Made by a program: the position numbers and the translations under genes
Part shown: in pieces, positions 4,295-42,854 of the stretch
Layout: each line of letters opens with the position of its first letter
Position numbering within the stretch: position 1 is the stretch's first letter
From: Planctomycetaceae bacterium
GTDB taxonomy: Bacteria; Planctomycetota; Planctomycetia; Pirellulales; Pirellulaceae
NCBI GenBank assembly: GCA_027487485.1
Contig: JAIYDN010000021.1
Coordinates: 1-64,000 of the forward strand
DNA length: 64,000 nt
Direction: 5' to 3'
The notes under the pieces: model-generated
What the model saw: only the letters and a program-made list of their open reading frames with translations
What the model was told of the DNA's origin: nothing
Database searches by the model: none

Positions 4295-4661
4295 AGCAAC
4301 CCTTCAAACAAACCACTACGAAAGCATCGCAAGACCTAGAGCGTTTAGTTCGTTCAAAACAACCGATTCCTGCGATGACAGTAGTGTAACCAGAACGATC
4401 GCTATAGCGACTACCCATCTTGAGTGACTAGTTCAACGTCGGTCCCGCCCCCTAGCTCGTACCTTTCGATTTGATATCGCGCATTTTGGCCTGCAGTCCT
4501 ACTCGTACTCAATGAAATGGTACTCGTACTCGTAATCGAAATACGCTGGTCGAGCACGAGCACGAAACGCCACGTTTCCCAAGAGTGCGGTGGCCAGGAG
4601 GCCGGATTTGAACAACAACATCAAAGCTCCTACCTTCCGCCGATCCACACATGCATCGATG
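4295..4661. other. Intergenic stretch with degenerate GTACTC/CTCGTA repeats
   Basis: No plausible gene lies in these 367 bp between the glycosyltransferase start and the end of the HExxH protein. The part 4501-4574 contains several close copies of TACTCGTACTCGTA-like and GAGCACGAG-like words, some in opposite orientation. This is a simple-sequence or degenerate palindromic repeat. Open frames through it on the plus strand show no conserved-looking protein. Confidence 0.5.
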
Positions 4662-5342
4662 CTACGCAGTTCGCGAACGGTATGGTCGGTCCGAATCGAG
4701 CTTGACCCGTCGGCTCGCCATCGAAACAGCTCGCTCCACCATCTTCAGTTTGTGGTACACCACCGGTCTATTTCGAAACCGCGACAGGGAGCGACGGTAC
4801 TTTACGAAGAACATGAACGTTTCCGCAAAATCCTCACTGGCATTGGTCGATGCGTAGTCGGTGATGAATTGCTGATACAAACAACCGTAGAAGAACTTGA
4901 GCTTGCCGTGGTCTGTTTTTCGACGGCTCTTGCCCTCTTGATAGCTAGGATCTCGCTTCAAATTGCGACGCCACGATTGATACGGAGACGATGCACAATT
5001 GTCGTACGGAGCTCCGAAGGTTCGTTCAAACCATGCCTGACGAAAGAATTCGCGATCGATGTAGTACCAAGCATGGGCGTATTCATGTCGAATGGTATCG
5101 CACAGGGTCATGCCAGGCTTGTACGGTTGATGCGGCAAGTCTCGAGGCAAGTAAATAACCCCCGGTCGATATCCTCGTTTGCCATAGTGCCCTACCTGCT
5201 CAAAGACATACCCTCGCTCGCCTGAACTTTTCGCACTCGATATGCACAGCTCCACAGCGTCCAAGTAGACACCATCAGCTAGCAAGCCAATTTCAGCGAG
5301 TTCATTTCGGACTTGGTTATATGCACGGTCGACGTTGGCCAT
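4662..5342 (-). CDS. Putative zinc metallopeptidase-like protein (HEYAH motif)
   Basis: 226 aa, no signal peptide. The sequence CDTIRHEYAHAWYYIDREFF contains HExxH (H86, E87, H90), the zinc-binding and catalytic pattern of gluzincin-type metallopeptidases. A downstream SEDFAETFMFFVKY segment offers an acidic third ligand. The order HExxH then (S/N)EDFAE resembles stand-alone eukaryote-like or putative zinc-binding peptidases of unknown substrate. The C-terminus is basic and serine/arginine-rich. It is flanked by gene-poor DNA on both sides and appears monocistronic. Activity is inferred from the motif only; it could be a non-proteolytic metal protein. Confidence 0.6.
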   Translation of the reverse strand: MANVDRAYNQVRNELAEIGLLADGVYLDAVELCISSAKSSGERGYVFEQVGHYGKRGYRPGVIYLPRDLPHQPYKPGMTLCDTIRHEYAHAWYYIDREFFRQAWFERTFGAPYDNCASSPYQSWRRNLKRDPSYQEGKSRRKTDHGKLKFFYGCLYQQFITDYASTNASEDFAETFMFFVKYRRSLSRFRNRPVVYHKLKMVERAVSMASRRVKLDSDRPYRSRTA

Positions 5343-34507: not shown

Positions 34508-34513
34508 TATAAT
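34485..34513 (+). promoter_or_regulatory. Promoter of the c-di-AMP riboswitch transcript
   Basis: A perfect -10 hexamer TATAAT occupies 34508-34513. The matching -35 region (around 34485-34491, CTATTTA) is weak. Initiation about 7 bases downstream (near 34520) would place the first transcribed bases just before the riboswitch aptamer, which is the expected arrangement. Confidence 0.65.
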
Positions 34514-34525
34514 ACAAGACATAAC

Positions 34526-34703
34526 AGCACGCTTAGTCGTATTGCCGTCGAAAACGGCATTGCGAGCGGGGGAACCACTACCGCGACTCGAACCTTGAAC
34601 CGGCTCGTTTCGCTCGGGGCTTAGATATCCTTGAGATATCGGGACTTCCAATCCTAGCCCGACAGCTAACCTCGTCAGCCGATTGAAAGACGTTCTTTCA
34701 ATC
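34526..34703 (+). ncRNA. Cyclic di-AMP riboswitch (ydaO-yuaA type) leader
   Basis: The plus strand carries the conserved blocks of the ydaO-yuaA aptamer in order. These are: a 5' arm with CGCTTAGTCG (34530-34539); hairpin GCCGTCGAAAACGGC; GAGCGGGGGAACCA (34564-34577); CGGGGCTTAGATATCC with a following GATATC hairpin (34615-34640); GGGACTTCC (34641-34649); and the most diagnostic block CCGACAGCTAACCTCGT. A perfect 10-bp stem with a 3-nt loop follows directly (34681-34703), which may be part of the expression platform, although no T-run follows. The downstream gene starts at 34892. In characterised cases c-di-AMP binding turns expression off, usually of K+ or osmolyte uptake or cell-wall genes. 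Here it would control a flotillin-like membrane protein. Confidence 0.88.
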
Positions 34704-34891
34704 ATGGAAAGCAGTTCCAATGAACTTGCTGGTGCTGAGATTTGAGTGGCACTTATGCGTTCCCATTTTTGATTTGGTATCGCTTTTGTTTTTAGAATCT
34801 GCGTGTTCGTGTGGACGTGCATGCAAGTTCTGAGCTTTAGGCACCAAGCGAAGTGTTCCTAAGTGCTATTCCCTTGTGGAGTTGTAATACC

Positions 34892-37075
34892 ATGTACGAG
34901 TTGTTTTGGCGCTTTCCTGTTTTGATCCTACTTTGCCTGATCCTGGCCAATTTATTGATCCTGTTTTGGCTTTCGTTTCGCTATATCCCGAACAATTCTG
35001 TTGGGATTGTCGAGAAACTGTGGTCCATGCGCGGTTCCGTTCCCGAAGGCAACATCATCGCACTCGCCGGTCAAGCGGGTTTTCAAGCCGAGTTGCTACG
35101 GGGAGGTATTCACTTTGGATATTGGCGCTGGCAGTATAGTGTCCATAGGGCACCATTCGTTACCGTTTCGCAAGGCAAAATTGGGTATGTTTATGCTCGC
35201 GATGGAGAACCTTTGGAGCCGAGTCAAACACTTGGACGTGCCGTCGACTGCAATTCGTTTCAAGACGCGCGAAGATTCCTTACGGCTCAAGACGATACCA
35301 AGTTGATTAACGAGGGTTCGGACTGTTCCGTAGGTCAACGTGGTCGGCAGAGAGCAATACTGCGTGAAGGGGTGTATGCCATTAACCCTGCTCTGTTTGT
35401 TGTTCTTACTGAGGAGAAAGTCTTTGCGATGCGCGCTTTGCAATCGCGCCAAGAGATTGAAACCGTTGAGGAGTTTCGAAACCAACTGGAATTGATCGGG
35501 GGATTCTCTCCGATTGTGGTTGGTGCACCGATGCAGTTCGACAACTCTTTGCATCCCGAACAACCCGCATCGGTAGATACCATCGCCATCGTAGTGGTGC
35601 ATGATGGACCATCGTTATCTGCAGAAGATATCATCGCCCCCATTGTTGGCGACGAAGCCGGCTCTGCGAAATTTCACAATCAATTTCAAGATGCGGAAGC
35701 ATTTCTCGCCGCAGGTGGGCGACGTGGTCGGCAATATCAAGTCCTTACCGACGGTACGTACTTTATCAATCGATGGTTTGCGACGGTCGAGATGATCCCA
35801 AAGACGGTAGTTCCGATCGGATATGTTGGCGTTGTCGTCAGCTACATTGGTCGGCATGGAACGGACGTATCCGGCAAGGGCTTTCGCCACGGCGAACAGG
35901 TTGCCACGGGTGAGAAAGGCGTTTGGGAAAAATCCTTTGGTCCTGGCAAGTATCCATTCAACCGGTATGCGGGAAACATCGTTTTGGTTCCAACCACGAA
36001 CTTCGTATTGCATTGGATCACAGGACGAACTGAATCGCACCGATACGATGAAAGCTTGCGCTCTATCGATTTGGTAACTAAGGATGCTTATGAGCCACTG
36101 TTGCCATTGAGTGTCGTCGTGCACATTGATTACGAACGCGCCCCAAGCGTCATTCAGCGTTTTGGCGATGTTAAGAAGCTGATCACTCAGACCATCGATC
36201 CGATGCTGAGCGCATTCTTTCGAGACGTAGCGCACACAAAGACCATGCTTGGATTGTTGCATGAACGCGACCAAATCCAAAAGGAAGCTCGCGAAGAGCT
36301 GCGAGAGAAATTTCGCGCCTTCGATATCGAATGTGTAGACGTCCTGATCGGAAAGCCTTCGAGTGCAGTTGGCGACGACAAGATCGAAACGTTGTTGGAA
36401 CAGTTGCGTCAGCGTCAATTGTCCAGCGAACAACTTGAGACATACGAGTCACGTCGCATCGCAGCCGAAAAGCAACAGCAATTGAAGGCTGCAGAAGCCC
36501 AAGCGGATATGCAAACTTCGTTAACCAACGCTCAGGTGCAAGCTCGAATTGCCGAAAGCCAGGGCGAAGCGGATCTTGCGCGTTCACGCAAGAAAGCGCA
36601 AGAGACCATCGTCATGGCCGACGCAGCCCTGGAACGATCGCGACGCGAAGCAGAGCAAAAAATTCTATTGGCCGAAGCAGATAGCCGTGAACGAATGCTT
36701 GCAGGCCGCGGAGAAAGTCAGAAGATCATGCAAATCGGCTTATCAGAGGCAACTGTACTGATGCGCAAGATTAGCTCGTTTGGTGATCCTCGGCTTTATG
36801 CGCTTCAGCAAGTCGTGTCCGAACTTGCAACTAGCCATCAGCCATTGGTCCCAGAACGCTTGTTTGTGTCCGGTAGCCAAGGGGGGGATGCAAACTCGAT
36901 GAATTCAGGAATGATGGGCATGCTACTGCAATTGCTTGTTGCCGAGAAATCGGGTTTCTCACCAGCCGCTCAGTCTCAGCCAAAGGATCTTGCGACCCTG
37001 CAAGAAGCTGCCGAGCGCATCAGCAAGAAATCGATGGATCAAATGCTTGAGTCTTTGGATCCAGACGTCCATTGA
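34892..37075 (+). CDS. Flotillin-like SPFH/Band 7 membrane protein
   Basis: 727 aa from the ATG at 34892, with GGAG 11 bases upstream; a GTG at 34853 is possible but adds a poor leader. One N-terminal membrane helix (about 5-30, FPVLILLCLILANLLILFWLSF). Two related segments follow: FQDARRFL...GQRGRQRAILREGVYAINP (about 120-165) and FQDAEAFLAAGGRRGRQYQV...GTYFINRWF (about 263-300). An SPFH/Band 7 domain then reaches about 490. A long Ala/Glu/Gln/Arg coiled coil (SRRIAAEKQQQLKAAEAQAD onward, about 515-610) and a Gly/Met-rich tail follow. Flotillins scaffold ordered membrane regions. Under the c-di-AMP riboswitch this one may respond to turgor, K+ or envelope stress (inference). It overlaps the convergent CbiX gene by 37 bp. 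Confidence 0.85.
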   Translation: MYELFWRFPVLILLCLILANLLILFWLSFRYIPNNSVGIVEKLWSMRGSVPEGNIIALAGQAGFQAELLRGGIHFGYWRWQYSVHRAPFVTVSQGKIGYVYARDGEPLEPSQTLGRAVDCNSFQDARRFLTAQDDTKLINEGSDCSVGQRGRQRAILREGVYAINPALFVVLTEEKVFAMRALQSRQEIETVEEFRNQLELIGGFSPIVVGAPMQFDNSLHPEQPASVDTIAIVVVHDGPSLSAEDIIAPIVGDEAGSAKFHNQFQDAEAFLAAGGRRGRQYQVLTDGTYFINRWFATVEMIPKTVVPIGYVGVVVSYIGRHGTDVSGKGFRHGEQVATGEKGVWEKSFGPGKYPFNRYAGNIVLVPTTNFVLHWITGRTESHRYDESLRSIDLVTKDAYEPLLPLSVVVHIDYERAPSVIQRFGDVKKLITQTIDPMLSAFFRDVAHTKTMLGLLHERDQIQKEAREELREKFRAFDIECVDVLIGKPSSAVGDDKIETLLEQLRQRQLSSEQLETYESRRIAAEKQQQLKAAEAQADMQTSLTNAQVQARIAESQGEADLARSRKKAQETIVMADAALERSRREAEQKILLAEADSRERMLAGRGESQKIMQIGLSEATVLMRKISSFGDPRLYALQQVVSELATSHQPLVPERLFVSGSQGGDANSMNSGMMGMLLQLLVAEKSGFSPAAQSQPKDLATLQEAAERISKKSMDQMLESLDPDVH

Positions 37076-41046: not shown

Positions 41047-42669
41047 TTAAGCAACCTGCTTCAGGAATCCCTCTAGCATTTGGGCTCGGACAGGGTTCTG
41101 AAGCTTGGCAACCGCCTTGGCTTCAATCTGGCGTACACGTTCTCGAGTTACCTTGAAGATGCGTCCAACCTCTTCCAGCGTATAGGAATATCCGTCGGTA
41201 AGACCGTATCGCAAGCGAATGATCTCGCGTTCGCGGTAGGTAAGAGTCTTCAGCAGCGAATCGATTCGGTCTCGCAAAACGCCATTGCTGGCGTTGCGAA
41301 CAGGGCTGTCGCTGGAAGGATCTTCGATGAATTCACCGAATGCGTTGTCTTCACCTTCGCCGACAGGACGGTCCAAGCTGATGGGGCTTCGGCCGATATC
41401 CATCACTCGCTGTACTTCCTCGATCGAGAGTTCTGCGACTTCTGCAATCTCGTACATGCTTGGCTCTCGCTTCAGTTCTTGCGTCAGCCGTTTCTGAATG
41501 TTGCGAAGCTTGCTGAGCACATCGATCATGTGAACAGGAATGCGAATGGTTCTCGCTTGATCGGCGATGGCTCGCGTGATCGCTTGGCGAATCCACCATG
41601 TCGCGTAAGTGGAGAACTTGAATCCACGTCGATACTCGTATTTGTCGACGGCTCGCATCAAGCCAGTGTTGCCTTCTTGAATCAGATCCAAGAAGCTCAT
41701 TCCACGGTTACGGTACTTCTTGGCAATCGAAACTACCAACCGCAAGTTGCCGCTGGACAGTTGGCGTTTTACTGCTTCATACTCCTTAAAGCTGCTCTTG
41801 AAATCATCGACGCGAGTTCGCAGTGAACGTGGGCTTTCTTGAGTGGTCATAATCAAATGACGGAGTTCAGCCACGCAGCGTTTCAGTTCTGTCGGCGAAA
41901 TACCGGTTTCTTGCAAGTGGCCAATTCGGCTTTGCAAATAGTCCATGCGTTGCGAGAACTGTTCCAGTTGTTTCATCAAAGGAATCACGCGTCGCGAACG
42001 AAGCGATAGTTCTTCGACCAAGATCAGCGACTTCAATCGTCGACGTTGGTAGCCTCGACGCAGACGTGCTTTGTCGGATTCCGAAACGCTCTTTCGGATA
42101 ATGCCTTGGAAGTCGCGGCGATTATCTTCCATCAGCGAATCCAAGGTCTTCAGGTTGTGCGGCATGCGGGCGCCAACTTGTTCTTTGGTCAACCGTTCGG
42201 TGAGCGAAACTTTGATGGTACGATCGAAGGGAAGGATGCCTGCGGCAACTTTGCGAAGGACTTCAACGGTTTGTCGAAGGGCGAAGTCGTTTCCTAACAC
42301 TGCCCGTCGAAACTTGCGACGCGTGATCTCGATCTTCTTAGCCAACGAGATTTCTTGATCGCGATTCAGTAATGGAATCTCGCACATTTGGCTCAGATAG
42401 AGCCGAATCGGATCGTTGGTCAGTTTGGGTGCATCGGAAGTTGTTGGGGCAGCCATGCCATCCCCGTTGTAGACCTTCAAGCCATGGTTCAATTCGGCTT
42501 CGACTTCGTCAACAATGTTGATGCCAGCTCGTTCCAGAACCACTAGGAGCTGATCCAGTTTTTCCGCCGTATTGGCTTCGTCTGGAAGATATTCATTGAC
42601 CTGTTCGTAAGTCAGAAAGCCTTGTTTTCGACCGATCGAAACCAATTGCTCAAGATCAATAGTTTGCAT
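41047..42669 (-). CDS. rpoD: RNA polymerase primary sigma factor (RpoD/SigA)
   Basis: 540 aa from the ATG at 42669 ([29 protein letters not shown]); an upstream ATG at 42753 is less likely, and GGAG lies upstream of 42669. Region 1.1 is short, then region 1.2 ([29 protein letters not shown]). A non-conserved insert of about 130 residues follows, then region 2 ([59 protein letters not shown] in pieces), region 3 ([11 protein letters not shown]) and region 4 with the helix-turn-helix [23 protein letters not shown]. This is the housekeeping sigma factor. It lies 185 bp downstream of dnaG on the same strand, as in the classic macromolecular-synthesis operon, without rpsU. Confidence 0.96.
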
Positions 42670-42854
42670 TTCCACGAGATCAACTCCTTTTGACAGTGGT
42701 ACTCTGGTTGTTGCTGATCGCTCATCCGGTGAGCAATCGCCTGGGGTCAACAACTTGAATAAATTTTATAGCCGAGCGGGGCTCGACGTTTTTCTATCGA
42801 GAAGGTTTGCGTTCCAAAGGTTCGCATCACTTCCTTCTCCTTGCGGAGAGTTCT

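Follow-up and report, generated by a model that had tools for sequence, protein, structure and literature searches.

A 64,000-nucleotide stretch of a planctomycete genome (Planctomycetaceae bacterium; hereafter the window) encodes an RNA that is, as surely as a sequence allows, a member of the c-di-AMP riboswitch family. The RNA lies upstream of an SPFH/Band_7 gene, and its homologs in related planctomycetes suggest that this pairing is most likely old and mostly inherited. The riboswitch family is a known one, here with a structural variation, a hairpin within the aptamer region, and with a new target. The conserved SPFH target, the extent of the switch in planctomycetes, and the class-wide inserted hairpin are new as far as the literature that we searched is concerned; the original accounts of the family's discovery and crystal structures (Nelson 2013, Block 2010, Jones 2014), or their supplements, might mention a target of the SPFH type or a member from planctomycetes. 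We consider it very probable that the RNA is a genuine c-di-AMP riboswitch with its own promoter, that it is the leader of the SPFH gene, that c-di-AMP lowers the expression of this gene, and that the output is something other than an intrinsic terminator.

Results

Identity of the riboswitch

A covariance-model search (cmscan) gave a match to RF00379 (c-di-AMP/ydaO/yuaA) at 34520-34694 on the plus strand of the window. The match scored 47.2 bits against a curated gathering score of 38 (E 7.4e-8) and spanned model positions 1-134 of 134, end to end. It was the only match in the whole 7.49-Mb genome, in a search in which all 107 candidates were scored. The original prediction had named an RF00379 search as its computational test; since the score exceeds the gathering score, the test was passed, and the riboswitch family, the strand, and the planctomycete origin were borne out. 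The blocks that it had listed (TATAAT, GGGGGAACC, the GATATC stem, GCCCGACAGCTAACCTCG, and the 10-bp hairpin) are all present in the window. The core blocks GGGGGAACC and CAGCUAACCUCG are found together with P1, in which three pairs are standard and one is a mismatch. The end of the match is 197 nt from the likely ATG of the SPFH gene, and the RNA is in a 5'-leader position with an upstream promoter recognized from sequence only. The features are listed below.

34508..34513, plus strand: TATAAT, likely -10 element (from the sequence); start expected at about 34520, the 5' edge of the aptamer
34520..34694, plus strand: c-di-AMP (ydaO/yuaA) riboswitch aptamer (RF00379 match)
34530..34533, plus strand: P1 5' strand, pairing with 34677-34680 with the one mismatch (cmscan alignment)
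34568-34576, plus strand: conserved block GGGGGAACC (from the sequence)
34624..34640, plus strand: GATATC-cttga-GATATC stem-loop of the aptamer (sequence, cmscan alignment)
34645..34651, plus strand: hairpin-loop strand of the pseudoknot (complementarity, covariation); UUCCA at 34646-34650 can pair with UGGAA at 34705-34709
34657..34674, plus strand: conserved core GCCCGACAGCUAACCUCG (GCCCGACAGCTAACCTCG); 16 of 18 positions invariant or nearly so in alignment A2
34677..34680, plus strand: P1 3' strand (cmscan alignment)
34681..34703, plus strand: hairpin A, 10-bp stem and 3-nt loop (sequence, fold, covariation)
34705..34709, plus strand: pseudoknot 3' strand UGGAA (complementarity, alignment, covariation)
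34711..34729, plus strand: hairpin B, directly 3' of the pseudoknot strand (leader fold; putative role)
34874..34881, plus strand: probable ribosome-binding site UUGUGGAG (from the sequence); L013, the nearest relative, has UGUGGAGUUG ahead of its ATG as well
34892..37075, plus strand: SPFH/Band_7 gene, 727 aa, presumed to be regulated (PF01145); reading frame open from the GTG at 34853
L119:2703-3647 (contig C15 of the same genome), minus strand: DacZ-type homolog

The scores of the 42 SPFH-linked matches described below ranged from 37.4 to 70.8 bits, whereas other classes of the switch reach 99.9; because of these low scores, searches may miss members of the SPFH-linked group. The inserted hairpin is not the sole cause, since the RNA of L004 lacks it and scored 60.4 bits.

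The SPFH gene

The downstream protein matched PF01145 with 47.6 bits against a cut-off of 23.6 (E 2.5e-12). The Band_7 match covers residues 306-528, with about 300 residues before it. The target had been called flotillin-like; its place in the SPFH/Band_7 superfamily is sound, and the identification goes no further than this level: the protein hit no NCBIfam family up to E 0.01 and no sequence in the PDB. Its AlphaFold model (pLDDT 48.7) was too poor to use. The nearest relatives of the gene are in assemblies labelled Planctomycetaceae bacterium or uncultured Pirellula. The window also encodes, at 41047-42753 on the minus strand, a sigma-70 factor with regions 1.1 to 4 (RpoD type); the TruB, CbiX, and M81-peptidase (MlrC) genes beside it look ordinary.

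Hairpin A and the pseudoknot

The 10-bp hairpin had been predicted to follow the aptamer. It is present at 34681-34703, but it sits between P1 and the pseudoknot 3' strand; thus, it is inserted in the aptamer region and does not trail it. The RNA, formerly ended at 34703, reaches at least 34709. Hairpin A also forms in the predicted fold of 34676-34900 (z-score -3.35). As we read the crystallised RNA in the excerpted text of PMC5393176, the ydaO pseudoknot is made by a hairpin loop and a strand just 3' of P1. In RNAs of the other classes, the pseudoknot 3' strand is mostly a few nucleotides past P1.

A stem of at least 6 pairs was found at the place of hairpin A in 55 of 61 RNAs from the window's taxonomic family, its riboswitch class, and SPFH-linked loci (19/22 from the taxonomic family, 1/2 others of the same class, and 35/37 SPFH-linked RNAs from named genomes). 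The same test was passed by 4 of 46 RNAs of other classes and by 127 of 2140 shuffled tails. The length of the stem across the window's class is 7-10 bp. Hairpin A was also considered as a mark of SPFH genes and was rejected in this role: KUP-type RNAs of the taxonomic family carry it, and the SPFH-linked RNAs of L025, L052, and L086, which belong to other classes, do not.

For covariation, we aligned 58 RNAs that we had ourselves assigned to the window's class (56 distinct). In hairpin A, 95.1% of the cells were paired and all seven counted pairs had changed on both sides. The pseudoknot helix was 81.6% paired, with both-side changes at 5 of 7 pairs, even though the sequences from the window's own genus are misaligned by one column there. 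For the whole structure, which was drawn from the same sequences and is favoured by the test for this reason, 88.6% of cells were paired (68.6% after shuffling), 205 cells were changed on both sides (61 after shuffling), and the covariation score was 0.612 (0.239 after shuffling; at most 0.214 with partners slid), each above all 500 shuffles. The count of pairs with a both-side change (14 vs 12.8, with 129 of 500 shuffles as high) and that of further pair types (39 vs 35.9, with 42 of 500 as high) were not clearly above the shuffled values.

We also scored the helix between each RNA's own loop and own tail in 107 of 109 planctomycete RNAs, the two without a recognized core being left out. The mean was 16.8, compared with 13.2 for swapped partners (sd 0.24; the highest of 200 swaps was 13.97), in a swap that ignores relatedness. 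The alignment and the swaps indicate that the ydaO pseudoknot is retained with covariation among the relatives. The loop-to-3'-strand pairing is found for the group and is weaker in the window RNA, in which 5 bp are possible and a rival pairing scores 14 vs 12 for the pseudoknot, as happens in some other RNAs. The 5-bp pseudoknot, the P1 mismatch, and this better-scoring rival pairing count against our preferred explanation.

Promoter

A hexamer differing from TATAAT at no more than one position was found in the 35 nt before P1 in 37 of the 59 RNAs that we put in the window's class (the window included), against 14 of 646 control windows taken further upstream; a perfect TATAAT at the same place occurred in 10/59 and 0/646, respectively. 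In the remaining RNAs, a -10-like hexamer was found in 15/49, against 10/523 controls. The riboswitch had been predicted to have a consensus -10 element of its own. The TATAAT is indeed present and its position is kept in relatives, but no good -35 element accompanies it in the window, and the sigma-70 scanner does not report the site. Because the -10 box is conserved at the P1 edge, a class-wide transcription start at the aptamer's edge is well supported.

Pairing of the riboswitch with SPFH genes

In the taxonomic family, RF00379 was found in 21 of 241 genomes (22 matches) by a search that scored part of the candidates and may therefore be incomplete. When the 1.5 kb after each match was compared by tblastn, the next gene was of the SPFH type in 10 cases (including the window's own and the fragmentary L008), KUP in 9, TrkH in 1, and unconfirmed as SPFH in 2. 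In L008 (G104:C207), the SPFH gene after the riboswitch is reduced to a short frame that matches over 68 residues, and the copy is broken or misassembled. A second type of downstream protein, in L010 and L020, looked SPFH-like by eye and was rejected, L010, the one checked, having no Pfam match. The 241 genomes contain 12 near-full-length SPFH genes, the window's included; 9 are preceded by the riboswitch, 1 is at a contig end, and 2 (G057 and G054) lack it, with no missed copy up to E 5.

We then considered the best 80 of 129 relatives of the SPFH gene in named genomes. At 42 of these loci, RF00379 lies on the same strand no more than 1.5 kb before the gene (41 of the matches exceed the gathering score; 5 of the 42 are in the same genomes as loci of the taxonomic family). 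One more locus (L148) has it by motif scan, 33 have neither, and 4 are too short on the upstream side (less than 450 nt) to be judged. A named strain, Aeoliella straminimaris (L160), is among those with the arrangement. The gene does not depend on the switch, since 33 of 76 testable loci lack it. On a quick maximum-likelihood tree of 81 SPFH proteins (44 with the riboswitch, 33 without, and 4 not scored), the trait needs 4 changes, compared with a mean of 25.1 after shuffling, and none of 500 shuffles was as low, in a tree with some long branches flagged and near-copies that help clustering. The riboswitch is absent on the Singulisphaera/Aquisphaera side and on the most distant branch. It is this clustering that points to an old pairing. 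An SPFH homolog of the same type, without the riboswitch, is also found in an assembly labelled Schekmanbacteria (L200).

The conserved context bears on the idea that the window RNA is a relic, with the fold kept and the gene no longer regulated. The score of 47 bits, where other classes reach 99.9, the P1 mismatch, and the atypical cyclase motifs described below would fit such decay. We nevertheless regard it as very improbable, given that relatives show compensatory changes in both hairpin A and the pseudoknot, that the promoter position is conserved, and that the trait clusters on the SPFH tree.

Targets elsewhere in Planctomycetota

The original prediction took the riboswitch to be known from Firmicutes and Actinobacteria. 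This range was too narrow: the part of PMC6488665 at hand names four phyla more (Cyanobacteria, Proteobacteria, Verrucomicrobia, and Fusobacteria), with Planctomycetota outside its six. The clear planctomycete example that had been expected is a real member, but not a single case, because 46 of 392 genomes in a sample of the phylum carry RF00379 (51 matches). The targets of the 50 matches other than the window's, with the transporter classes checked with Pfam on one representative each, were 14 amino-acid-permease-type, 6 of a second permease type, 14 TrkH, 6 other TrkH-type, 2 KUP, 3 SPFH type, and 5 unclassified. We take the amino-acid-permease-type targets to be KimA-like K+ importers. Two of the three SPFH genes (L025 and L086) have Band_7, and L052, SPFH by tblastn, has no Pfam match. 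The 79 genomes of the named SPFH loci contain 67 RF00379 matches; 42 are those before the SPFH loci, and the other 25 were classified in part. Across the phylum, the switch thus serves chiefly transporter genes, including those for K+ uptake, and SPFH genes.

The KUP gene of the window's genome lies at 68870-70309 (minus strand) of the same contig, about 4.9 kb past the end of the window (L290), and no RF00379 copy, degenerate copies included, was found near it up to E 5. Congeners carry the riboswitch on KUP, and one relative (G096) carries it on both KUP and SPFH. In another planctomycete genome (G680:C163), two divergent matches, 4368-4532 (minus strand) and 4634-4846 (plus strand), are about 100 nt apart.

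Signaling genes

The genome encodes a DacZ-type diadenylate cyclase homolog with DacZ_P and DAC domains above the cut-offs and the motifs DGG and RHW. The usual DAC motif at the DGG position is DGA, and the usual cyclase motif at the RHW position is, we assume, RHR; on account of these differences, the homolog is a putative cyclase only. Among 30 DAC loci that we read, 25 have DGA and RHW, the window's genome has DGG and RHW, and the other four differ; thus, RHW is common in the clade and may be a planctomycete clade feature, and DGG was seen only in the window's genome. A second DAC-like protein (L120:3383-4606, minus strand, contig C107 of the same genome) is below the threshold (21.7 bits vs 27) and has DGA and a GTRTTAA stretch; it may serve as a DAC-like sensor domain and not as a cyclase. 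The genome also encodes a 7TM-7TMR_HD protein, presumably of the PgpH type.

A DAC match above the cut-off was obtained in 28 of 28 genomes searched, including the 21 riboswitch genomes of the taxonomic family. In the phylum, a cyclase was found in 361 of 392 genomes and in 43 of 46 riboswitch genomes (the exceptions being G321, G490, and G539). The presence of a cyclase was therefore dropped as a correlate of the riboswitch, as it is too common to inform.

A putative source of c-di-AMP in the same cell bears on the specificity of the aptamer. The insertion is largely class-specific, and it might have enabled the recognition of another ligand; we give this almost no credence, as the core positions are mostly invariant in alignment A2, KUP K+ transporters are preceded in relatives by RNAs that share the insertion, and the cyclase homolog and the 7TM-7TMR_HD gene are both present in the genome.

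Leader and output

No terminator-like site was found in the window leader. Such sites occurred in 12 of 43 SPFH leaders, compared with 8-15 of 43 over six rounds of shuffling; since they are no commoner than in shuffles, intrinsic termination was rejected as the general mechanism, and with it the reading of hairpin A as an intrinsic terminator. From near the aptamer end to the first matched SPFH codon, the 43 leaders measure 148 to 680 nt. Masking of the ribosome site was also considered for the window leader; pairing probabilities around this site in the full-leader fold were mixed (0.21-0.97). The place of hairpin B is occupied by GGGC...GCCC in many relatives. By its place, hairpin B is perhaps the start of the expression platform, and it could be a switching partner of the pseudoknot strand. 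The output is probably translation control or factor-dependent attenuation. The portion of PMC9960051 available gives precedents for c-di-AMP switches that work without an intrinsic terminator; in it, the S. coelicolor rpfA switch is described as lacking a canonical terminator and is said to be Rho-independent.

Discussion

Our preferred explanation is as follows. Transcription would start at the 5' edge of the aptamer from its own promoter, so that the riboswitch RNA forms the 5' leader of a putative membrane-scaffold gene of the SPFH type. At high concentrations, c-di-AMP would bind and close the aptamer through P1 and the pseudoknot and, most likely, lower SPFH expression, probably at the level of translation or of factor-dependent attenuation. 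When c-di-AMP falls, under low K+ or hyperosmotic conditions, SPFH expression would rise together with that of K+ importers, which in relatives have this switch too.

The direction of the switch rests on analogy. Because the switch elsewhere in the phylum is mostly located before transporters, many of them for K+, an OFF switch tied to the K+ and osmotic state is likely. An ON switch, by which c-di-AMP would raise SPFH expression, opposite to the K+ importers, could be argued from a target unlike transporters and from a leader in which, with no visible terminator, the platform does not reveal the direction. We consider it improbable, because hairpin A is shared by the KUP-type RNAs of the taxonomic family (8/9 pass the stem test) and because c-di-AMP riboswitches are described as OFF switches in the portion of PMC9960051 available.

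In a further, bolder reading, SPFH would be an old, mostly vertical riboswitch target through which c-di-AMP governs a membrane scaffold in Planctomycetia, and hairpin A would either supply a second input, by contact with a protein or RNA, or tune the closing of the pseudoknot. We regard such a two-input variant as a speculative and rather unlikely possibility.

c-di-AMP is a known signal of K+ and osmotic state and of the cell wall, and the riboswitch would link it to an SPFH membrane-organising protein. Planctomycetota have unusual cell envelopes, and about 40 related loci offer tests of a link between c-di-AMP and SPFH.

Comparison with known systems

The window RNA resembles the known c-di-AMP riboswitch family in the full-length model match above the gathering score, the core blocks, and the 5'-leader place, and differs from it in its SPFH target and in a leader in which no intrinsic terminator was found. 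The switches of the K+ transporters ktr, trk, kdp, kup, and kimA, as given in the part of PMC6488665 at hand, belong to the same family, and planctomycete members precede KUP, TrkH, and amino-acid-permease-type genes. In contrast, KUP in the window's genome is without RF00379, and the only match is on SPFH. The nlpC switch of Corynebacterium glutamicum is similar in lacking an intrinsic terminator, and translation control was proposed for it (PMC9960051, in the portion available); it differs in its target, a cell-wall peptidase, in a comparison made by description. Among SPFH/Band_7 proteins (stomatin, prohibitin, flotillin, and HflK/C), PF01145 is common ground, and the window protein has the long N-terminal part before Band_7.

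The crystallised ydaO RNA, from the excerpted text of PMC5393176, resembles the window RNA in the pseudoknot of loop and 3' strand. In our reading, the crystallised RNA has about 2 nt between P1 and the pseudoknot strand, whereas the window's class has a hairpin of 7-10 bp. This comparison suggests that the c-di-AMP aptamer region tolerates an extra helix beside the ligand-readout junction, and that one class largely conserves it.
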